NCBI RefSeq assembly: GCF_002237555.1
Contig: NZ_CP022540.1
Location: 3,663,001-3,727,000, forward strand
Length of the DNA: 64,000 nucleotides
Reading direction: 5' to 3'
From: Antarctobacter heliothermus
GTDB taxonomy: Bacteria > Pseudomonadota > Alphaproteobacteria > Rhodobacterales > Rhodobacteraceae
How positions within the stretch are numbered: the stretch's first letter is position 1; every line of letters begins with the position of its first letter. The notes under the pieces are model-generated. The model saw nothing but the letters and a program-made list of their open reading frames with translations, was not told where the DNA came from and ran no database searches. Both the position numbers and the translations under genes were made by a program. This document shows positions 411 through 24,806 of this stretch, piece by piece.

Positions 411-1589
411 TCAAAGCCGCGCAAATTCAGGTTCAAGCGCCGCCAGCGCCTCAATCGAGTTGGCAGGCAAAAGCGCATCCAGATGCGGCCGCGCGGCTGT
501 CATCGCCCGCGCCACGGGCGCGTGATCCTCCCAGCCATTCAACGGGTTCAGCCAGACCACCCGATGCGCCCGCCGTTGCAGGCGGCGCAGCCCCTCGGCC
601 ACCGCTTCCGGCGCGCCGGTGCAATAGCCATCGCTGAGGATGATCACCACCGTCCGGCCATTCACCGCCCGCCCGGCATGACCCGCGTTGAAGGTTCGCA
701 GCGCCCCGCCAATGTCGGTGCCGCCGCCAAACCCCTCGGCCATGAGGCTCAACCGTCCCGCCGCACGGAGGGTGTCGCGATCACGCAAAGCGTCGGTGAC
801 ACGCATCAGGCGGGTGTGAAACAGATAGGCATCCGCCCGCGTATCCACGCTGATCAGCCCCCTGAGGAACGCCAGGAACACCCGCGACACAGTGGTCATC
901 GACCCGCTGACATCACACAGCGCCACGATCCTGAGTGGCCGATCAGGCCGCTTGCGGCGCGGCAGGTCGAGTGGCTCGCCCCCGCGCGCAAGGCTGGCGC
1001 GCATCACCCGCCGTAGGTCCAGTTCCTGACCCCGCACCGCCTGCCTGCGCCGCCGTGATCGTCGGTCACGCAGCGCGCGACCCAAATCCTGCGCGGCCTT
1101 CTCAGCCGTCCGCAAGCTGTCCTCATCCATCAACTCCCGCAGGTCGCGCCGGCTGAGCGCCTCTGTCCGGGTGGCGATCAGACGACCATCAGTGCCCTCA
1201 GCCTCACCATCGCCCCCATCGAGCTGGCCTGCATCGCTTTCCTGCTCGGGTCCGTCCGCACCCAAATGCGACTGCCAAAGCGCAGGTTTCGCGCTTTGCA
1301 CCCTGACATTTACATTGGCCTCTCCCTGACGCTGCTTGCCCATATTGAACCAGTAGCTGTCATAGAGATCGTCAAATCGCCGCCACGCATCCGCATCCGG
1401 CACCAGCAGCGTCTTGAGCGCGCGCCGTGCCTGATCGGGGTCGGTCGCCTTGACCGCTGACAACGCCGCCAGCGCCGCCACCGTTTCCCCCGGCCCCAAA
1501 CGCAGCCCGTTCATCCGCAAATGCGCGATGAAACCGGCCATGCGATCCGCCAACCCCTCGGCGCGCAACGGAAAGCGGGTGACAGCCAT
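411..1589 (-). CDS. coxE: CoxE, von Willebrand factor A domain protein for CO dehydrogenase maturation
   Basis: The product is 392 residues with a C-terminal VWA domain. The MIDAS motif DVSGS is at about residues 226-230, and a later GGGTDIG and LSDG complete the metal-site pattern. The middle (residues 112-185) is acidic and then very Arg-rich, probably a flexible linker. In Oligotropha, CoxE works with the AAA+ protein CoxD in building the active site of CO dehydrogenase. That pairing of MoxR-type ATPase and VWA protein is a general chaperone arrangement. Here the ATG at 1589 overlaps the coxD stop by one base (TGATG), so translation is coupled. A GTG one codon upstream is also possible, but the TGATG junction favours the ATG. 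Confidence 0.92.
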   Translation of the reverse strand: MAVTRFPLRAEGLADRMAGFIAHLRMNGLRLGPGETVAALAALSAVKATDPDQARRALKTLLVPDADAWRRFDDLYDSYWFNMGKQRQGEANVNVRVQSAKPALWQSHLGADGPEQESDAGQLDGGDGEAEGTDGRLIATRTEALSRRDLRELMDEDSLRTAEKAAQDLGRALRDRRSRRRRQAVRGQELDLRRVMRASLARGGEPLDLPRRKRPDRPLRIVALCDVSGSMTTVSRVFLAFLRGLISVDTRADAYLFHTRLMRVTDALRDRDTLRAAGRLSLMAEGFGGGTDIGGALRTFNAGHAGRAVNGRTVVIILSDGYCTGAPEAVAEGLRRLQRRAHRVVWLNPLNGWEDHAPVARAMTAARPHLDALLPANSIEALAALEPEFARL

Positions 1590-2452
1590 CACGCCACCTT
1601 GCCCACGATGCGGGCCATGACCTCGGGCGGCAGGGCATCGCGGTCGGCGGCGGTCTTCAGCAGGCAGACAAGTGTGGCCTGCACCTGCGCCGGATTGGCG
1701 GACAGATCGTTGATCCCCAGCCCCGACAGCGCCCCCGCCCAGTCCAACATTTCGGCAATGCCGGGTGATTTCTCCAATTCCTCGCGGCGCAACGCCTGCA
1801 CCACGCCAATGATCTGCCGCGCCAATCGCGCCTCAACGTCCGGCGCGCGGCGGGAAAGGATCGCCAACTCAGTCTCCCGGTCGGGATAATCGACGTAGCT
1901 ATACAGACAGCGCCGCCGCAACGCATCCGACAGATCACGCGTGCCGTTCGCCGTTAGGACAACCACCGGGCGCGTCCGGGCGCGGATGGTACCCAGTTCC
2001 GGGATGGTGATCTGAAAATCCGACAGGATCTCTAACAGATAGGCCTCAAATTCCTCATCCGCGCGGTCGATCTCATCGATCAACAACACCGGCCGCACCT
2101 CTTGCGAAATCGCCTCCAGCAAGGGCCGTTTCAGCAGGTATGTCTCGGAAAACAGCGCCGCCTCATCCGCGCCATCGGCCCGGATCGCCAGCAACTGGCG
2201 CTGGTAGTTCCATTCATAGATCGCATGGCCCGCATCCAGCCCTTCGTAACACTGCAATCGGATCAACCGCGTTTCCAAAACCTCTGACAGCGCTTTGGCG
2301 ATCTCGGTCTTGCCGACACCGGCAGGCCCTTCCAGCAGCAGCGGACGGCCCAGCGTCAACGCCAGATGCAGCGCCATCGACAAGGTCTCGTCCGCCACAT
2401 AGCCGGTGGCGGCCAGACGCTCTCTCAGTTCCGCCTCACGCATCGCCCGCAT
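1589..2452 (-). CDS. coxD: CoxD, MoxR-type AAA+ ATPase for CO dehydrogenase maturation
   Basis: This 287-residue MoxR-family ATPase has Walker A GPAGVGKT at residues 42-49, Walker B LLIDEID, sensor 1 in VVVLTANGT and an arginine-rich DALRRRC segment. In Oligotropha, CoxD is a membrane-associated ATPase needed to assemble the [CuSMoO2] centre of CO dehydrogenase. It follows coxL after an 89-bp spacer that holds two strong hairpins, and it is translationally coupled to coxE. The ATG is preceded by AGAGAAGAAG. A second ATG three codons later (MREAEL) cannot be excluded as the start. Confidence 0.93.
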   Translation of the reverse strand: MRAMREAELRERLAATGYVADETLSMALHLALTLGRPLLLEGPAGVGKTEIAKALSEVLETRLIRLQCYEGLDAGHAIYEWNYQRQLLAIRADGADEAALFSETYLLKRPLLEAISQEVRPVLLIDEIDRADEEFEAYLLEILSDFQITIPELGTIRARTRPVVVLTANGTRDLSDALRRRCLYSYVDYPDRETELAILSRRAPDVEARLARQIIGVVQALRREELEKSPGIAEMLDWAGALSGLGINDLSANPAQVQATLVCLLKTAADRDALPPEVMARIVGKVA

Positions 2453-2541: not shown

Positions 2542-4959
2542 TTACCCATGCAGCCCCAGATCACGCGCGATCCGCCACACCCGCCAATGGTCATGCGGCA
2601 TATGGCTTTGCGTCAGGCCAAAGGGTCGGAACGCATCGTGGACTGCGTTGGAGAACGCCGGAACCGAACCGACGTTGGGACTTTCGCCGACACCCTTGGC
2701 GCCAATCGGATGATGCGGTGACGGGGTGATGGTGAAATCCGTCTCATAGGTCGGCGTCTCCCACGACGTCGGCAGGAAGAAGTCCATCAAGGTCGCGGTC
2801 TTGTGATTGCCCATGTCGTCGTAAGCAATCTCTTGTCCCATGGCGATGGCATAGCCTTCGGTCGCGCCACCGTGAACCTGCCCTTCGATGATCATCGGGT
2901 TGATCCGGGTGCCACAATCGTCCAGCGCATAGAACTTGCGGATTTCATGTTCGCCGGTGTCCACGTCCAGATCCATCACGCAGATATAGGCGCCAAAGGG
3001 GTAGGTCATGTTAGGCGGATCGTAGTAGCTGACCGCCTCCAGCCCCGGCTCCAACCCCGGAATGGCTTGATTGTATGAGGCAAAGGCGATTTCTTTCATC
3101 GTCTTGAAACGGTCCGGCGCGCCTTTGACCACAAAACGGTCGACGTCGAATTCGACGTCGTCGTCATGCACCTCCAACAGATAGGCGGCAATCATCTGCG
3201 CCTTGGCACGGATCTTACGCCCCGCCATGGCCGTCGCGGCCCCGGCCACGGGCGTGGAGCGTGATCCATAGGTGCCCAGCCCATAAGGCGCGGTGTCGGT
3301 GTCGCCCTCCTCGATGGTGATATCATCCGCCGAGATGCCGATTTCCGAGGCAAGGATCTGTGCAAAAGTCGTGGCGTGCCCCTGCCCCTGACTTATGGTC
3401 CCTAGCCGTGCAATCGCCGATCCGGTTGGATGGATGCGGATTTCGCAACTGTCGAACATGCCAAGGCCAAGGATATCGCAGTTCTTGACCGGTCCCGCGC
3501 CGACAATCTCGGTGAAATGGGTCAGGCCGATCCCCATCAACTTGCGCGTCTTGCCGGCCTTGAAATCCTCCAGCCGTTGCGCTTGTTCCCTACGCAGATC
3601 GTCATAGCCAACCGCCGCCAGTGCCTTGTCCCACGCGGTGTGATAGTCGCCGCTGTCGTATTCCCACCCCAGCGCCGACTGATAGGGAAACTGATCTTTG
3701 CGGATAAAGTTGATCCGCCGCAGTTCGGCCGCGTCCATGTTCAGCTTGATCGCCAATACCTCGATCATGCGTTCGATGAAATAGGCGGCTTCTGTCACGC
3801 GGAAGGAACAGCGGTAGGCCACACCCCCCGGCGCCTTATTGGTATAGACCCCATCCACGGCCAGATAGGCAGTGGGGATGTCATACGACCCGGTGCAGAT
3901 GTTCATGAACCCCGCCGGGAATTTGGTCGGGTCGGCGCAGGCGTCAAAGCCACCGTGATCGGCAGTGGTATGACACCACAGCCCCGTGATCTTGCCCTCT
4001 TTGGTGGCGGCAATCTTGCCCTGCATCCAGTAGTCGCGGGCAAAGGCCGTGGACATCAGGTTGTCCATCCGGTTCTCGACCCATTTCACCGGTTTGCCGG
4101 TGACAATGGAGGCGACAACCGAACAGACATAGCCCGCATAGGCCCCGACCTTGTTGCCAAAACCGCCGCCAATATCCGGTGAGATCACGCGGATGTTGTG
4201 TTCGGCAATGCCAGAGATCAGGCTAACCACCGTGCGGATCGCGTGCGGTGCCTGAAAGGTGCCGTGCAGGGTCAGCTTACCCGTGACCTTGTCCATCGAC
4301 GCCACGCAGCCGCAGGTTTCCAGCGGACAGGGGTGCGTGCGGTGGTAATAGACCATCTCCTCGGCCACCACATCAGCCCCGGCCAAAACCGCCTCTGTGG
4401 CGTCCTTGTCGCCCTGTTCCCATGTAAAGATGTGGTTGTGATGTTTGCGCGGCCCATGCGCGCCCTCGGTCTGGCCCTCCAAATCCTCACGCAGGACGAC
4501 ATCCGATTTCAGCGCCTCAAATGGATCGGTCAGGACCGGCAGTTCATCGTATTCGACCTCGACCGCCTCAACGCCGTCAGCGGCGGCATAGCGGTCCTTG
4601 GCGATCACATAGGCCACCTCCTGACCCTGAAACAACACCTTGCCATCGGCCAGCACCATCTGCTTGTCGCCCGCCAGCGTCGGCATCCAATGCAGGCCCA
4701 GCGGCTCCAAATCGGCGGCTGTCAGGACGGCTATCACGCCGGGTACCTTCATCGCCTCTTCGGTGTTGATCGAGACGACGCGTGCATGGGCATAGGGCGA
4801 ACGGACAAAATCACCGAACAGCATCCCGTCCAGCTTGATATCGTCGACGTAGTTGCCGCGACCTTGGGTAAACCGGACATCCTCGACCCGCTTGCGCGAG
4901 CAGCCCATGCCCTTGAGGCCAGCGCTGCGTTCTTCGGGGGTTGCGACCTCGTCTTTCAT
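2542..4959 (-). CDS. coxL: Aerobic carbon monoxide dehydrogenase large subunit, form I
   Basis: This 805-residue molybdenum subunit of CO dehydrogenase oxidises CO with water to CO2, two protons and two electrons. The active-site loop AYRCSFR, with Cys at about residue 384, is the signature of form I (true) CoxL; form II proteins carry AYRGAGR. The C-terminal KGVGES segment holds the catalytic Glu of the family. Length matches the Oligotropha enzyme (about 809). An open frame extends further upstream to 5568, but that part overlaps coxS in another frame. The ATG at 4959 overlaps the coxS stop as ATGA and yields the expected N-terminus. It forms the (LMS)2 complex with CoxM and CoxS. Confidence 0.97.
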
Positions 4960-5450
4960 TCCGCAGCCTCCTTTTGCGCGTTGATGTTGTCGGCGGCCGC
5001 GAGGATCGCCTTGACGATATTCTGATAACCGGTGCAGCGGCACAGGTTGCCTGCCATGCCAAAGCGCACGTCGTCCTCTGTCGGCGTCGGATTTTCCTGC
5101 AACAGCCGGTGCGCACGGGTAATCATCCCCGGCGTGCAGAAACCGCATTGCAACCCGTGATGCTCTCGGAACATCTCCTGTAGCACCGACAGGGAGCCGT
5201 CGGGGTTCACCAACCCCTCGACCGTGGTCACATCCGCGCCCTGCGCCTGCGCCACAAAGACCGTGCAGGATTTGACCGACTTGCCGTCCATATCGACCGT
5301 GCAGGCCCCGCAATGCGAGGTTTCGCAGCCCACATGCGGCCCGGTCACCTTGAGGTTCTCGCGCAGGAAGTGGATCAACAGGGTGCGCGGCTCTGCAAGG
5401 CCTTCGACCTCTTCGCCGTTCACCTTCAGCTTTACATGCATCTTGCTCAT
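4956..5450 (-). CDS. coxS: Carbon monoxide dehydrogenase small (2Fe-2S) subunit
   Basis: This 164-residue iron-sulfur subunit passes electrons from the molybdenum site to FAD. The plant-type cluster ligands are Cys42, Cys47, Cys50 and Cys62, and the second cluster ligands are Cys102, Cys105, Cys137 and Cys139. This is the spacing known for CoxS. It lies between coxM (11-bp gap) and coxL (4-bp ATGA overlap), giving the transcriptional order M-S-L that is typical of form I clusters. The start has GGGGGA a few bases upstream. Confidence 0.97.
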
Positions 5451-5461
5451 ACCGTCCCCCC

Positions 5462-6298
5462 TCAGCCCGCGACGCGCGACAGCGCCCGGTCGATGGCGCG
5501 GCGCAACACGACGCCCGCCACATGTTTCTTGAACTCGATTGGTCCGCGCATGTCCTCCTGCGGATCAATGGCGGCGAGCGCGGCGCTGACGGCCCCCTCT
5601 TTGTCCCCAGAGGCCAAGGCCGCGCCCGCCTCTGCCGACCAGACCGGCGTATCCGCCAGATTGGTCATGGCAATCGAAGCGCCGCCGGGACCAACCAGAA
5701 CCGCCGCCGCTGCGGTGGCATAGTCGCCGATCTTGCGCTTTTGCTTTTCATAGGCAAATCCGGTGCCCGCCGCCGGGCGGGGGATGAAAATCCGCGTCAG
5801 GATCTCTTCGTCGCTGCGCGCGGTGAAATAGGCGGAGTCGTAAAAGTCCCGCGCCGCGATACGGCGTCCACCATCCGGCCCAACCACCTCATAGGACGCA
5901 TCAAGGCATTGCATCAGCCCTGGCATGTCATTGCCGGGATCACCATTGGCGACATTGCCGCCAATGGTGCCAACGTAACGCACCTGCGGGTCGGCAATCT
6001 GCAACGCCGCCTCACGCAGGATTGGTGCGGCCTGCGCCAGCCCCCTATGGGTGATCAACTCATTCTGTGTTGTCATCGCACCGATGGTGACGCTGTCAGC
6101 GCCGACCTCGATCCCCTTGAGTTCATCAATGTCTTGCAAGTCGACAAGATGGGACAAATGGGCCATGCGCAGCTTCATCATCGGGATCAGGCTGTGACCG
6201 CCCGCGACAACCCGTGCCTCATCGCCATGTGCCTGCAACAGACCGATAGCCGACGCCATATCTGTCGGCCGATGGTACTCAAACCCGGCTGGTATCAT
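5462..6298 (-). CDS. coxM: Carbon monoxide dehydrogenase medium (FAD) subunit
   Basis: This 278-residue flavoprotein subunit takes electrons from CoxS and hands them to the respiratory chain. The two FAD pyrophosphate-binding motifs are visible: AGGHS at residues 32-36 and TIGGN at 111-115, the positions known for this family. An upstream in-frame extension to 6481 is open but has no domain content. The ATG at 6298 is preceded by GGGAGGA with 6-7 nt spacing and gives the standard N-terminus [11 protein letters not shown]. It is the first structural gene. The phased repeats at 6377-6428 lie 79-130 bp upstream of the start. Confidence 0.96.
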
Positions 6299-6376
6299 TT
6301 TCGAATATCCTCCCTGCGGTCTCCCTCCGCATGAGGACAGACTTCCTCGAAGCAGGGCACGGACCAACGAAAGAGC

Positions 6377-6428
6377 CATGAAATGCAGGGTCCTGCGCAC
6401 GAAATGCGAAATACATGCACAAGATGCG
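6377..6428 (-). promoter_or_regulatory. Three phased direct repeats upstream of coxM, candidate CoxC (LytTR) site
   Basis: On the minus strand three 11-mers occur in the same orientation: CGCATCTTGTG (6428-6418), CGCATTTCGTG (6408-6398) and TGCATTTCATG (6387-6377). Their starts are 20 and 21 bp apart, close to two helical turns, so they face the same side of the DNA. LytTR-domain regulators bind direct repeats with about this period. The site lies between the gene for an MHYT-LytTR protein and its likely target operon. The repeats are read directly from the sequence; assignment to CoxC is inference. Confidence 0.6.
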
Positions 6429-6524: not shown

Positions 6525-7652
6525 CTAAACGCCCAGAACCTGCCGGACGTCCGAAAGACGTGACCGGCTCACCGGCACCTTGGGCAGCGACTCGACCGCC
6601 TCAAAGAAACACAGACCAGTGTCCTTGGTCCGTCGAAACTCTGTCACGAAGGCAGGATTAACCAGAAAGCTGCGATGGGTTCGGATCAGACCGGCAGGTT
6701 CAAGCCGTTTGGACGCCTCAGAGATCGACCAAGGGCAAAACAGCTTGTTCACACCGGCATAAATCACGGTGTAATGCCCCTCGGCCCGAACGGCGGCTAT
6801 CGCGGTCGCGTCCAGAAATTGGGTACGACCCTCTTTTTCGTACGGTACCGATACGCGTGTCCCCGACGGGCGAAGCAACTTGTCCGGGGTGGGAACCATG
6901 TCTTTGACGGCCTGTTGGCTTTCAACCGATGGCGGGGCCGCAACCTTGACCGGAAAGAAGGTGATGCCAGACAACAGAAAGGCACCGCAGATCGCGAAAG
7001 ACGACAGCGTCACCCCCATTGCCAGAACCTCATTCGACAGGATTGGCCCTGTCCCGCCTCCGCCGCCCAGCCCGACAAAACCGGTTCCGGCCATGGCGAT
7101 AAAATGCAGGGCAAAGACCGAGACGCCGAAAAACAAGGTGCCCAGCAGGATGTGACCCCGTGTCCGTTCACCGTAAGCGATCCAGATCGCCGCAATAGAC
7201 AATGCTAATGCGGCGACCAACGCCACCAACACACCACCCACACTATAGACTGGGCGGCACAGTTCCATCCCGCTCATCCCGACGTAGTGCATTGCGACGA
7301 TCCCCGCCCCGACAATCGCCCCCGCCATTGTCAGGCTGGCGGGCGTGCGGTCACGGAAATGCAGGATCAACAGCGCGAGTCCGACCATCAGGATCGCAAT
7401 CAGCGCCGAGATCAGCGTCACCAAGCCGTCGTAGTAGAACAAGATCGGCAGTTGCAGTCCCAGCATGGCGACAAAATGCATCGACCAGATGCCACCGCCC
7501 AAAGCGACGGCTGAAATGGCGACAACCGCCTTGCGCCGCGCCAACGGCAGCGCCGATGCGCCACGGGTGATCGCCAGACCGCTGAAACCGGCCATCAGCG
7601 CAACCGCAAGGGATGCCACCACAAGTGTGGGATGATGCGAGAACTCAAGCAC
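6525..7652 (-). CDS. coxC: CoxC-like MHYT-LytTR membrane regulator of CO oxidation
   Basis: The product is 375 residues. The N-terminal half is a multi-pass MHYT sensor domain with the repeated motif at residues 58-60 (MHF), 121-123 (MHY) and 182-184 (LHF). The C-terminal 110 residues form a LytTR DNA-binding domain containing LIRTHRSFLVNP. MHYT domains are thought to bind a metal, often proposed to be copper, and to sense O2, CO or NO. CoxC and CoxH of Oligotropha have this same MHYT-LytTR layout. The gene precedes coxM in the same orientation, 226 bp away. I chose the GTG at 7652 because GGAGGG lies 8 nt upstream. A TTG at 7676 would extend the frame but has no such site. Confidence 0.85.
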   Translation of the reverse strand: MLEFSHHPTLVVASLAVALMAGFSGLAITRGASALPLARRKAVVAISAVALGGGIWSMHFVAMLGLQLPILFYYDGLVTLISALIAILMVGLALLILHFRDRTPASLTMAGAIVGAGIVAMHYVGMSGMELCRPVYSVGGVLVALVAALALSIAAIWIAYGERTRGHILLGTLFFGVSVFALHFIAMAGTGFVGLGGGGGTGPILSNEVLAMGVTLSSFAICGAFLLSGITFFPVKVAAPPSVESQQAVKDMVPTPDKLLRPSGTRVSVPYEKEGRTQFLDATAIAAVRAEGHYTVIYAGVNKLFCPWSISEASKRLEPAGLIRTHRSFLVNPAFVTEFRRTKDTGLCFFEAVESLPKVPVSRSRLSDVRQVLGV

Positions 7653-8204
7653 GCCGCCGACCCTCCAGATGTGCAAAAATTAGTCAAGCCACCTTTGCGG
7701 CACAAGCGCCCCCATGCCCTTGCCTGCAGGGTTCAATACACTTCATGATAGAATAGACAAAAAACTTTTCAGGGGAACAGCGTGATATAGGAAACACTCC
7801 TGCGCCTTCCACGATTACGGTTTCTTAACCCTCACCAATGACGCGCTTTCAACAATATCCCGCCCAATCATTCCCGAAATCGCGTCCCTAAGTGGAATCT
7901 GGATCGGTTTTCCGGCCGGTCCCTTGCTCGCCACGCTGCTTCAGGACCTTTGAAATGACTTCTACGAACAGGCACACATTGGCCACCCAAGATGCCCCTC
8001 TGGCGTCTTGCTCGGCTATGTGCGCCGGGTCAGGTACCTTGCAGCGCACCACCCGGACACGACGTGTCGGATCTGCCCCCGACCGAAACCAACCGTCCAC
8101 AACGGACCCTCTGCCGGGTCTGTACAAGACGGGTTTGCCCCTGCGCGTCTCGCCGCTGCCCAACACCAGGCGAGGCGCGCACCTGAAGAACTGGACCCCG
8201 CCTC
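7653..8204. other. Divergent intergenic region between coxC and the M10 protease gene
   Basis: About 550 bp separate two divergently transcribed genes. Short open frames on both strands have no recognisable domain and lack good ribosome binding sites. The half nearest coxC (7680-7880) is noticeably richer in A and T than the surrounding DNA and contains a TAGAAT hexamer, so promoters for one or both genes probably lie there. I could not pair it with a convincing -35 element. Confidence 0.6.
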
Positions 8205-10370
8205 ATGTGCTTTCTCTGCCAGAGCCTGAATCCCAGGACCGATGACTATGAGTTCCATGGCCTGACCGGCCCGACCGCCGCCGCCACTGTCGGTGACAGA
8301 AGCAGCGCGCCCGCGTCGTCAAAACCGGTCTATTCGCTGGATCAGGTCGCCACCCAGCTGACCCATGGATACTGGCAGTCGGGTGGCGGGGACTGGCGCG
8401 CCTTTGACGTACAGGCGGGCGACACACTGACGGTCAATCTGGACGGGCTCGACCCTGTCGGACAGGCCGCCGCCGTGGCGGCGTTGGCGGCGTGGACGGC
8501 GGTTTCGGGTCTGCAGTTCATGACCACCTCGGGCGATGCCGACATCACCTTTCAGGACATCGACGGCGGTGCCTATTCCTATTCCGCTGTCTATACAGGC
8601 TGGAACGAAATTGCCTATTCCGTCGTCAACGTTCATGCCAGCTGGCAGGGCAACGCCGACTACTACTACCAGACCTTTATCCATGAGATCGGCCATGCGC
8701 TGGGTCTAGGACATGGCGGCAACTACAACGGCAGTGCCGATTTCGACAGTCAGGCACATTACGCCAACGACAGTTGGCAGATGTCGATCATGTCGTATTT
8801 TGCCCAGTGGGAGAACCCGAACGTCGATGCCTCGGGGATGTATCTCAATTCACCGCAAATGGCCGACATCCTTGCGATCCAGAACCTGTATGGCACACCC
8901 GACAACGTGCATGTCGGCAACAGCGTCTACGGCGACAACTCCAATCTGGACGCGACGGGCATGGATCTGGAACGAGGCCGCGCGGTCACGATTTTCGACA
9001 GTTCCGGAATCGACCTGATCGACCTTGGATCGCGGGCCTACAATCAATATCTCAGCCTGATCGACGCCACTTGGTCAAATCTGGACGGCTATGTGGGCAA
9101 CTTTGGCATCGCGCGCGGGGCGGTAATCGAGAACGCCATCACCGGTGCAGGCAACGACCACGTCACTGGCAACACCGCTGCCAATGATATCCAGACCGGC
9201 GATGGGGCCGATACAGTGCAGGCCGGGGCCGGCGACGATACAATCGACGGCGGTGCAGGCGAAGACACTGTCATCTTCACCGGCGCGTCAGAAGGCTATG
9301 ATCTGATCTGGGACGGCGCATTGCGGATCACCGACACCGATCTGACCGATGGCGACGACGGCACGGATGTGCTGACCGATGTCGAAACCCTGAGCTTTAC
9401 CGACGGGGCCTTTGGCACAATCCAAAGCGATGGCGCTATCACCAAGGTACGCCTGTACAAAACCGGTAGTAGCCTGACCGAAGAGACGCTGGAGGTGGAC
9501 GTGGCTAACAGTCACGACTGGCAGAGCATCGCACGCAGCTTTACCGACACAGGCCAGTGGGCAAGCCAGACCAACACCTATGACAATGGTCGGGTATTGC
9601 AAATCAGCTTTGCTGATGGCCTGCGCGCGCAGTCGACCATGACGGACACGGCGAACGTCTATTCCTGGGCCAGCTACACCGACATCTACGATGAAACCGG
9701 TGCGCGGATCATCAACAGCTATACCTGGGACAGCGGCAAGATGGTCGATGTCTACTACGACTCCGAAGGCGCGCGGATCGGGTCATTGGTGATCGACGGC
9801 GGCGACCAGTTCGTCTGGCATTCCATCGCCCGCAGCTATGACTCCACGGGCACATTGACCGAACAGAACAACCTCTTTGACGACGGCAGTGAACAGGTGA
9901 TCTCGTACACCGACGGCGTGCGCAGCGGCATTTCCATGACCGACGGAGCGGACAAGGCGATCTGGTCCAGCTACACGGACACCTATGATACCGCAACCGG
10001 GGCCAAGGTTTCACGGCTGATGATCTATGATGATGGCCGCGAGATCGAAACCGGCTACGACAATGGCCAGATGGTGTCGCAAACGATCACCGACGGCGCC
10101 GACGATTTCGTCTGGCATTCAACGACACGCAACTACGACTCCGAAGGTATGCTGGACAGCCAGGTTGACACCTATGACGACGGTCGCGTGATGGAAATCG
10201 AGTTTGAAAACGGGCTGCGCAGCAGTTCGATCCAGACAGATGTCGCTGACGCCTATGCCTGGGCCAGCGCGACTGAGACCTATGACGACAGCGGCACGCT
10301 GATCGAACGGGTCACCCATTGGGATGACGGCAGTGAAAGCGCGGTGACTTATGGCGACAGCATCGCCTGA
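8205..10370 (+). CDS. Serralysin-like M10 metalloprotease with RTX repeats and C-terminal alternating repeats
   Basis: The 721-residue protein opens with MCFLCQSLNP, a CxxC start that I recall from Rhodobacterales secreted M10 and RTX proteins, and it has no Sec signal peptide. A metzincin zinc site HEIGHALGLGH begins at about residue 160, and the Met-turn MSIMSYF lies near residue 195. An RTX-type calcium-binding segment with AGAGDDTIDGGAGEDTV is at about residues 315-365. Residues 429-721 consist of six 46-50-residue repeats of two alternating types, listed separately. Serralysins leave the cell through a type I secretion system, which is not encoded here. The ribosome binding site is weak. 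The protease call is firm; the function of the repeat region is unknown. Confidence 0.85.
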   Translation: MCFLCQSLNPRTDDYEFHGLTGPTAAATVGDRSSAPASSKPVYSLDQVATQLTHGYWQSGGGDWRAFDVQAGDTLTVNLDGLDPVGQAAAVAALAAWTAVSGLQFMTTSGDADITFQDIDGGAYSYSAVYTGWNEIAYSVVNVHASWQGNADYYYQTFIHEIGHALGLGHGGNYNGSADFDSQAHYANDSWQMSIMSYFAQWENPNVDASGMYLNSPQMADILAIQNLYGTPDNVHVGNSVYGDNSNLDATGMDLERGRAVTIFDSSGIDLIDLGSRAYNQYLSLIDATWSNLDGYVGNFGIARGAVIENAITGAGNDHVTGNTAANDIQTGDGADTVQAGAGDDTIDGGAGEDTVIFTGASEGYDLIWDGALRITDTDLTDGDDGTDVLTDVETLSFTDGAFGTIQSDGAITKVRLYKTGSSLTEETLEVDVANSHDWQSIARSFTDTGQWASQTNTYDNGRVLQISFADGLRAQSTMTDTANVYSWASYTDIYDETGARIINSYTWDSGKMVDVYYDSEGARIGSLVIDGGDQFVWHSIARSYDSTGTLTEQNNLFDDGSEQVISYTDGVRSGISMTDGADKAIWSSYTDTYDTATGAKVSRLMIYDDGREIETGYDNGQMVSQTITDGADDFVWHSTTRNYDSEGMLDSQVDTYDDGRVMEIEFENGLRSSSIQTDVADAYAWASATETYDDSGTLIERVTHWDDGSESAVTYGDSIA
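9489..10367 (+). repeat. Six in-frame tandem repeats of alternating type (A-B)x3 at the protease C-terminus
   Basis: Units start at 9489, 9636, 9786, 9933, 10083 and 10230, with lengths 147, 150, 147, 150, 147 and 138 bp. Units 1, 3 and 5 share a W-[QH]-S-x-x-R-[SN]-[FY] core (for example VWHSIARSYDSTG). Units 2, 4 and 6 share W-[AS]-S-[YA]-T-[DE]-x-Y-D (for example SWASYTDIYDETG). All carry a D-[DNS]-G near the middle or end, as in YDDGR. The repeat is therefore a 99-residue A-B pair present three times, not a simple 49-residue repeat. The units differ by many substitutions, so the array is old. Confidence 0.85.
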
Positions 10371-22988: not shown

Positions 22989-24806
22989 ATGGATTTGCGC
23001 AACGTCGCGATCATCGCCCACGTCGACCACGGCAAAACAACACTGGTCGACGAGCTGCTGAAACAATCCGGCGCCTTCCGCGCCAATCAGGCCGTGGCCG
23101 AACGAGCCATGGATTCCAACGACCTTGAACGCGAACGCGGGATCACCATCCTTGCCAAGGCGACGAGCGTCGAATGGAAAGGCAAACGCATCAACATCGT
23201 GGATACCCCCGGCCACGCCGATTTCGGCGCCGAGGTGGAACGCATCCTATCGATGGTGGATGGGGTTGTCCTTTTGGTCGATGCCGCCGAAGGCCCGATG
23301 CCGCAGACCAAGTTCGTCACCTCCAAGGCGCTGGCGCTGGGCCTGCGCCCGATCGTCGTGCTCAACAAGGTCGACAAGCCGGACGCGGAACCGGACCGCG
23401 CGCTGGATGAGGTGTTCGACCTTTTCTCGAACCTCGACGCGGATGAAGATCAGCTTGATTTCCCGCACCTATACGCCTCTGGCCGCTCTGGCTGGTGCGA
23501 TGCAGAACTGGACGGCCCCCGCAAGAACCTTGATGCGCTGTTCAACCTGATCGTGAACCACGTCCCTGCCCCCAAGCAGGTCAAACAGGTCGACGATGAT
23601 TTCCGGATGCTGGCCGTGACGCTGGGTGCCGATCCCTTTGTCGGTCGCCTGCTGACCGGGCGCATGGAATCCGGTCGCGTCAAGGTGGGCCAGACCGTGC
23701 AGGCCCTGTCGCGCATCGGTCAAAAGATCGAACAGTTCCGCGTCACCAAGATTCAGGCGTTCCGGGGCCTGAATCTGCAAGACATCGACGAGGCCGAAGC
23801 CGGCGATATTATCAGCCTCGCGGGCATGACCAAGGCAACAGTGGCCGACACGCTCTGCGCGCTGGCCGTCGATGAACCGCTGGAAGCGCAGCCCATCGAC
23901 CCGCCGACCATCACAGTCACCTTCGGCATCAACGACAGCCCGCTGGCTGGTCGTGACGGCAAAAAGGTCCAGTCCCGCGTGATCCGCGACCGACTGTACA
24001 AAGAAGCCGAAACAAACGTCGCCATCCGCATTAAGGACACTCCCGGCGGCGAGGCCTTTGAGGTCTCCGGTCGTGGCGAACTCCAAATGGGCGTGTTGAT
24101 CGAAAACATGCGCCGCGAAGGGTTTGAACTGTCGATCTCACGACCGCAGGTGATCCTGCGCGAAGAAGACGGCAAGACGCTGGAACCCGTCGAAGAGGCT
24201 ACAATCGACGTGGATGACGAATATTCTGGCGCAGTCATTGAAAAGCTGACCGGCACCCGCAAGGGTGAGTTGGTCGAGATGCGCCCCGCTGGCGCTGGCA
24301 AGACGCGCATCATTGCGCATGTGCCGTCACGCGGGCTGATCGGTTATCACGGCGAGTTCCTGACCGACACACGCGGCACAGGCGTTCTGAACCGCGTCTT
24401 TCACGGCTGGACCCCGCACAAGGGGCCGATTCCAGGCCGCCGCGCTGGCGTTCTAATCTCCATGGAATCTGGCGAAGCTGTCGCCTACGCGCTTTGGAAC
24501 CTCGAAGATCGCGGCAGAATGATGATCGGCGCGCAGACCCAGATCTATCAGGGCATGATCATCGGCGAACACAGCCGCGAGAACGATCTTGAGGTGAACC
24601 CGCTCAAGGGCAAGAAACTGACCAACGTGCGCGCCAGCGGCACCGATGAGGCAGTTCGACTGACTACGCCGATCACCCTCTCGCTAGAAGAGGCCATCGC
24701 CTATATCAACGACGATGAACTGGTAGAGGTCACGCCAAACGCGATCCGCCTGCGCAAACGCTATCTTGACCCGCATGAGCGCAAGCGTATGGCGCGGTCT
24801 ATCTAA
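22989..24806 (+). CDS. typA: Ribosome-associated GTPase TypA/BipA
   Basis: This 605-residue translational GTPase has G1 AHVDHGKTT (residues 10-18), a switch region ERERGITI, G3 DTPGHADFG and G4 NKVDKPDA. Domains II, III and V and the TypA C-terminal domain follow ([19 protein letters not shown]). BipA binds the 70S ribosome at a site like that of EF-G and aids 50S assembly and stress adaptation. The ATG at 22989 is preceded by AAAGGAAA and gives the family N-terminus [15 protein letters not shown]. The open frame upstream to 22902 has no family content. Confidence 0.97.

Follow-up and report, generated by a model that had tools for sequence, protein, structure and literature searches.

Does the CoxC regulator of Antarctobacter heliothermus control the CO dehydrogenase genes that lie behind its own gene, and if so, through which DNA site? 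Its marine relatives are regarded as important CO consumers in the ocean. In the 64-kb stretch of DNA analysed here (the window), the first-pass annotation had pointed to three short direct repeats between coxC and coxM, and had taken them for the operator of a CO response. We compared this array with the corresponding regions of other genomes of the family and the class, and with the operators of CO regulators described in the literature.

The repeat array and its neighbouring regulator gene

The genes of the cluster follow one another on the minus strand in the order coxC, coxM, coxS, coxL, coxD and coxE (Table 1). The large subunit encoded by coxL carries AYRCSFR, which we take to be the form I motif. 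As annotated, the gene upstream of the array encodes a LytTR protein. MHYT and LytTR were the only Pfam domains detected in CoxC; a PAS domain, as would be found in an RcoM protein, gave no match. The motifs MHF, MHY and LHF are located at residues 66, 129 and 190 of CoxC, and a PDB search with its LytTR part returned four matches up to an E value of 1, the best being 3d6w (E 0.003). When the whole genome of the organism (5.33 Mb) was searched, one match to CoxC and one match to LytTR were found, CoxC being that LytTR gene. As the search showed no second LytTR gene in this genome, any LytTR operator present there is expected to be that of CoxC. Divergent from coxC, a long open reading frame on the plus strand (8205-10370) carries acidic repeats and the sequence HEIGHALGLGH, presumably a zinc-protease-like motif.

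Table 1. Features of the coxC-coxM region and the cox cluster, in coordinates of the window.
Feature	Position	Strand	Sequence	Evidence or remark
11-mers of the first-pass annotation	6428-6418; 6408-6398; 6387-6377	-	CGCATCTTGTG; CGCATTTCGTG; TGCATTTCATG	
Repeat unit 1	6416..6428	-	CGCATCTTGTGCA	farthest from coxM; 14.3 bits, unit-1 matrix
Repeat unit 2	6396..6408	-	CGCATTTCGTGCG	19.7 bits, unit-2 matrix
Repeat unit 3	6375..6387	-	TGCATTTCATGGC	degenerate copy; 13.5 bits, unit-3 matrix
Predicted -35	6362..6367	-	TTGGTC	weak consensus match; phase +15; same hexamer in L002, L003, L006
Predicted -10	6339..6344	-	AAGTCT	poor match; phase +38, spacer 17; start near 6332 would follow
coxC	6525..7676	-		MHYT sensor part and LytTR domain; Pfam MHYT 5.2e-30, LytTR 1.3e-13
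coxM	5462..6298	-		CO dehydrogenase FAD subunit; Pfam FAD_binding_5, CO_deh_flav_C
coxS	4956..5450	-		iron-sulfur subunit; Pfam Fer2_2, Fer2
coxL	2542..4959	-		large subunit, AYRCSFR; ORF translation, start set at ATG 4959
coxD	1589..2452	-		AAA ATPase; Pfam AAA_5
coxE	411..1592	-		VWA protein; Pfam VWA_CoxE 5e-58

The three 11-mers were located exactly as claimed, with start spacings of 20 and 21 bp and at 79-130 bp upstream of coxM (coxM ATG at 6298, coxC stop at 6525), and their pattern has no further match on either strand of the 64 kb. When the 226-bp gap was shuffled 5000 times (first-order), a triple with as many pairwise matches (25 of 33) at spacings of 19-22 bp was obtained 4 times. 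The repeats of the window by themselves are thus suggestive, but not decisive as to chance, and conservation must decide. In the relatives described below, the conserved unit extends to TCGTGCA, so that the 11-mers are one to two bases too short; the extended units are those given in Table 1. With matrices derived from 82 relatives, the window triple scored 47.5 bits, a value that was reached in none of 1000 shuffles (top shuffle 2.7), and the top array scores in the rest of the window were 0.5 bits on the minus strand and -2.0 bits on the plus strand. A site upstream of coxC that could serve autoregulation was rejected, the top scores between 7677 and 8300 being -23.8 (minus) and -21.7 bits (plus). 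The published unit TTNNNGCN is present as an exact match only in unit 2 (TTCGTGCG), while unit 1 (CTTGTGCA) and unit 3 (TTCATGGC) each miss it by one base. An exact TTCNNGCA, the unit bound by RcoM, was found in none of the three.

Conservation of the array in front of coxM

Searching 394 family genomes for CoxC, we found any match in 119, and all 96 with an E value of 2.5e-56 or better were read. coxM follows coxC within the stretch in 85 of the first 90 loci read. For the position matrices we used 82 of the 85 regions, excluding the window and its two nearest relatives. The comparison of coxC-coxM gaps that the annotation had suggested revealed the array in all 85 regions, with 0 of 500 shuffles as high in each case; these scores come from a five-fold cross-validation (minimum 29 bits), in which the training positions were taken from the full fit, a mild leak. 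In 11 further family genomes the array also beat the shuffles (0/300 each), so that all 96 family genomes that match CoxC in full and have coxM carry the array before coxM (85 + 11). In a 97th genome (G017), whose CoxC is divergent, the array is marginal (1/300 shuffles). One locus (L244, genome G344) retains the array while its coxC and coxM each match in two pieces, as with frameshifts or assembly errors.

The aligned regions define a sequence rule. Unit 2 is the strongest with 23.0 bits of information and the consensus CGCATTTCGTGCA, followed by unit 1 with 18.4 and unit 3 with 8.9 bits, and the unit recurs every 20/21 bp. The two spacings were 20/21 in 38 regions, 21/20 in 27, 21/21 in 15 and 20/20 in five, and the spacings 19 and 22, which were permitted at a penalty, were chosen in none of the 85. 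When the unit matrix was slid along the region, z exceeded 2.5 solely at the three phases, and no peak was seen in the relatives at -41 and +41, where a fourth unit was sought. Unit 3 resembles units 1 and 2 at +20 (z 5.3, correlation 0.64; runner-up 0.43). It is weak in most relatives, however, and because windows placed off the units were similarly informative after refitting (8.7 bits at -30 and 9.0 at +22, both overlapping real units), what speaks for unit 3 is its phase together with its resemblance to the other two units. The published unit TTNNNGCN is fitted by unit 1 in 51, unit 2 in 49 and unit 3 in one of the 85 relatives, and the exact TTCNNGCA occurs in 23, 46 and 0, respectively.

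In these 85 regions, the distance from the end of unit 2 to coxM has a median of 97 bp (quartiles 96-100, range 88-133), and that from unit 1 to the coxC stop runs from -18 to 232 bp, with the end of coxC overlapped in 22. In three genomes (G007, G279 and G328) coxC is found about 3.8, 30.5 and 14 kb away from coxM, and in all three the array stands before coxM; the strict two-unit pattern described below is absent from the stretches read around their coxC genes. Moreover, in two other loci coxC lies at a contig edge, and coxM and the array are found together on another contig.

coxM itself was detected at an E value of 1e-60 in 101 of the 394 family genomes, five of which have no CoxC match. 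Two of these five (G008 and G083) carry no array, and in another two (G102 and G354) the sequence ends too near coxM for the array to be scored. Contrary to a simple rule, the fifth (G109) has coxM with a weak array (22.1 bits, 0/300) yet no CoxC match. At this locus (L233) coxM is at 3486, the array precedes it by no more than about 150 bp, and the neighbours of coxM include no CoxC; CoxC might have been lost or might be absent only from the assembly, or the array might answer to a different LytTR protein.

In addition, the 394 genomes were scanned with a strict pattern of two GCANNTCGTG units with 10-11 bp between them, which the window misses by one base in unit 1. Of 61 matches, 56 are located before coxM: 50 in the 85 regions, five in L216-L218, L224 and L225, and one in G076. 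The matches in G388, G382, G332, G046 and G254 were rejected as chance, their stretches containing no coxC, M, S, D or E. A search for further targets in the organism's own genome, allowing up to two mismatches, gave 3 other places at a spacing of 20 bp and 10 at 21 bp, as against 3 and 31 in a reversed control, and further targets were rejected. The cox array alone appears in both spacing lists, but two other places also have one mismatch at 21 bp.

To cover the class, 385 genomes were searched; 74 match CoxC at an E value of 1e-20, many of them through the MHYT part alone. We read ten near full-length CoxC loci outside the family (L249-L258, nine families) together with L129, L148 and L184, which were taken from 80 named loci for their non-Rhodobacteraceae titles. 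coxM is present in 12 of these 13 loci and the array in all 12 (0/300 each), while the stretch without coxM (L255) has no array. Arrays between coxC and coxM were also found on plasmids of Afipia OM5, Bradyrhizobium SK17, Rhizobium SL42 and Shinella HZN7 (0/1000 each), the third unit scoring below zero in all four. For instance, the array on Afipia OM5 pHCG3 (L228, 15222-15278) consists of the strong unit GTATTTCGTGCA and two weak ones in front of coxM (0/1000 shuffles). With this distribution, the array is a well supported candidate for a general coxM site, linked to coxM across several alphaproteobacterial families, and a sequence rule for finding it is now available.

Relation to the operators of Afipia CoxC and RcoM

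The annotation had held the binding site of MHYT-type CoxC proteins to be undefined, a statement outdated by a site at Afipia carboxidovorans PcoxB published in 2024. As described by Durante-Rodriguez et al. 2024 (PMC11347149), CoxC of strain OM5 recognizes three direct repeats at PcoxB, as seen in EMSA and reporter assays, and its LytTR domain binds PcoxB with an apparent Kd of ~25 nM. In E. coli, PcoxB is repressed by CoxC, and CO relieves this repression via the MHYT part, for which copper is required (PMC11347149). The same paper gives the repeat intervals as 18-21 bp, which, judged by its primers, are the gaps between the motifs, and states that the array overlaps the predicted -35. In kind, a CO regulator with a LytTR operator of three repeats is already known from PMC11347149, and the Afipia example was the only MHYT-LytTR operator that we found in the literature.

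We applied our matrices, trained without any Afipia sequence, to the 626-bp PcoxB region. The top array was placed at 311, 332 and 352 (GCAGTTCATGCG, GCCGTTGGTGGA and GTCGTTTGGGCA; spacings 21 and 20), inside the probe used in PMC11347149. Its units score 12.4, 3.4 and -1.2, in total 14.6 bits, and none of 1000 shuffles came as high (best 3.4). The motifs substituted in the published primers start at 330, 359 and 385, and are thus 29 and 26 bp apart. Of the published changes, I hits the conserved G of unit 2 (332) and two bases outside, II replaces two T and one G at conserved places of unit 3 (352), and III falls outside the 311/332/352 array. Binding was very weak after I and after I+II, and none was seen after I+II+III (PMC11347149). 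The substitution results as published are compatible with both registers; the 21/20 register leaves the last step (I+II+III) unexplained.

As far as the Afipia operator is described there, it shares with the window a MHYT-LytTR regulator encoded in the cox cluster and three direct repeats about two turns apart next to a promoter. The Afipia site, however, stands before coxB and that of the window before coxM, and the published motif spacing is 29/26 bp compared to 20/21 bp in the window. Furthermore, the paper has the PcoxB array overlap the predicted -35, whereas in our reading it ends upstream of the -35.

A second CO regulator offers a further comparison. RcoM senses CO by a heme PAS domain, and RcoM1 of Paraburkholderia xenovorans LB400, which activates, uses three TTCNNGCA units separated by 12-13 bp (PMC11347149). 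This operator as reported has the same period of 20-21 bp, and unit 2 of the family array fits TTCNNGCA in 46 of 85 cases. The regulators differ: RcoM has an N-terminal heme PAS domain, the CoxC of the window an MHYT part. Canonical LytTR sites consist of two 9-bp direct repeats with a gap of 10-13 bp (PMC11347149); they have two units and the window array three, both being direct repeats two turns apart, and are likened here by spacing alone. The array of the window suggests that one type of LytTR operator may serve two unrelated CO sensors, the heme-based RcoM and the MHYT-based CoxC.

New in the present analysis are the unit CGCATTTCGTGCA every 20/21 bp, with a degenerate third copy and a -35-like box that follows the third TTC at 15 bp, and a different register for the PcoxB repeats. 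New as well is the Afipia coxM site; the main text of PMC11347149 does not name it, PcoxM being nowhere mentioned and coxM twice. A second CoxC site is thereby predicted in Afipia itself, before coxM. Our literature search returned no title on a coxM site; RcoM, the mapped cox starts of Oligotropha and cox expression in Ruegeria were outside its reach.

Promoter phase and the sign of regulation

To place the promoter, we counted positions from the third TTC, beginning at its first T. In the 85 relatives, a -35-like peak was found at +15 and a -10-like peak at +38, with a spacer of 17, and either peak as well as the pair exceeded all 200 shuffled sets. The boxes are judged poor because their mean log-odds scores are below zero. 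The -35 profile at +15 (-1.34) is equalled at +43 (-1.36), but a -10 peak at a suitable distance accompanies +15 alone. A plain consensus scan of the coxC-coxM gap for promoters and terminators found none. Seven of 17 loci that had not entered the training have their top -35 at +15, the other ten being scattered, and the mean profile peaks at +15; the binomial value for 7/17 is 1.6e-8 if the loci are independent, the coxM loci of Afipia and Bradyrhizobium being near kin. At Afipia PcoxB (TTGATG) and at Afipia and Bradyrhizobium coxM (both TTGAAT), the best -35 likewise lies at +15. For Rhizobium SL42, a -35 at +15 was seen in a hand-chosen register (third unit at +19); the automatic register gives +13, and this locus was counted as a miss. 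The phase of the promoter relative to the array is likely fixed, and the position of the array, which ends upstream of the predicted -35, is no less fitting for activation than for repression.

Judged by these sequence comparisons, the array is most likely a CoxC operator that serves the coxM promoter. The annotated CO-response operator is supported as a conserved, coxM-tied array of predicted CoxC type; the view that the binding site of such proteins is undefined is not, a site having been described in 2024. We predict with high confidence that CoxC binds the array. By analogy with Afipia, CO probably alters this binding, and for the net effect at coxM we lean slightly towards repression relieved by CO over activation. 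CoxC would be held in the membrane with its LytTR domains on the three repeats, two turns apart on one helix face. Sitting just upstream of a sigma-70-type -35, it would control coxM and the cox genes behind it. Following the Afipia model, CoxC would keep the promoter down when CO is absent and let go once CO acts at the copper of its MHYT part. The complete chain, sign included, is only narrowly favoured.

The strongest alternative keeps the operator and reverses the sign: CoxC could be an activator or a dual regulator at coxM that contacts RNA polymerase, with units centred near -48, -69 and -90, and the repression in E. coli would then stem from the foreign polymerase or from the greater strength of the promoter. 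Activation from upstream of the -35 is described for RcoM1 and for most LytTR regulators (PMC11347149), and the phase of -35 and -10 downstream of unit 3, seen in the 85 relatives and best at +15 in seven of the 17 untrained loci, would place CoxC likewise. Against it stands the CO-relieved repression of PcoxB by Afipia CoxC in E. coli (PMC11347149), though the geometry of PcoxB reads alike, and the predicted boxes stand in for mapped start sites. The boxes are poor on average, as they are in activator-dependent promoters. Alphaproteobacterial promoter boxes, however, are often poor. We regard activation as possible, but as the less probable sign. At a similarly tentative level, the coxM promoter rather than PcoxB may be the general, perhaps ancestral, target of CoxC, which would be bound there at an activator's position (-48, -69, -90). 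If this is true, CoxC would activate, or both activate and repress, in the hosts it comes from, and the repeats published for PcoxB would be off the true 21/20-bp register.

Returning to CoxC as the protein on the array, it is very unlikely that another regulator binds there and CoxC is merely a neighbour. The weak array of G109 without a CoxC match would fit such a regulator. However, the own genome has one LytTR gene, the array tracks CoxC-bearing genomes across the class, the family array includes TTCNNGCA, the unit of a LytTR regulator, and the matrices pick the CoxC-bound PcoxB fragment (0/1000). A chance likeness of three 11-mers, which the shuffles rarely produce for the array taken by itself, is refuted by conservation and spacing in family and class and can practically be dismissed.

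Two further sites of this type were observed next to MHYT-LytTR genes other than coxC. On plasmid pSINME01 of Sinorhizobium meliloti AK83 (L231), in a 9-kb stretch with no annotated cox gene, a clear array (5236-5293, 0/1000 shuffles) follows an orphan MHYT-LytTR gene, with an EAL protein annotated for the next gene. On Afipia OM5 pHCG3 (L228), the coxH-coxI gap, one of six Afipia gaps scored, contains two CoxC-like units 20 bp apart (24434-24491, 6/1000 shuffles), which are perhaps the target of CoxH, the second MHYT-LytTR protein.
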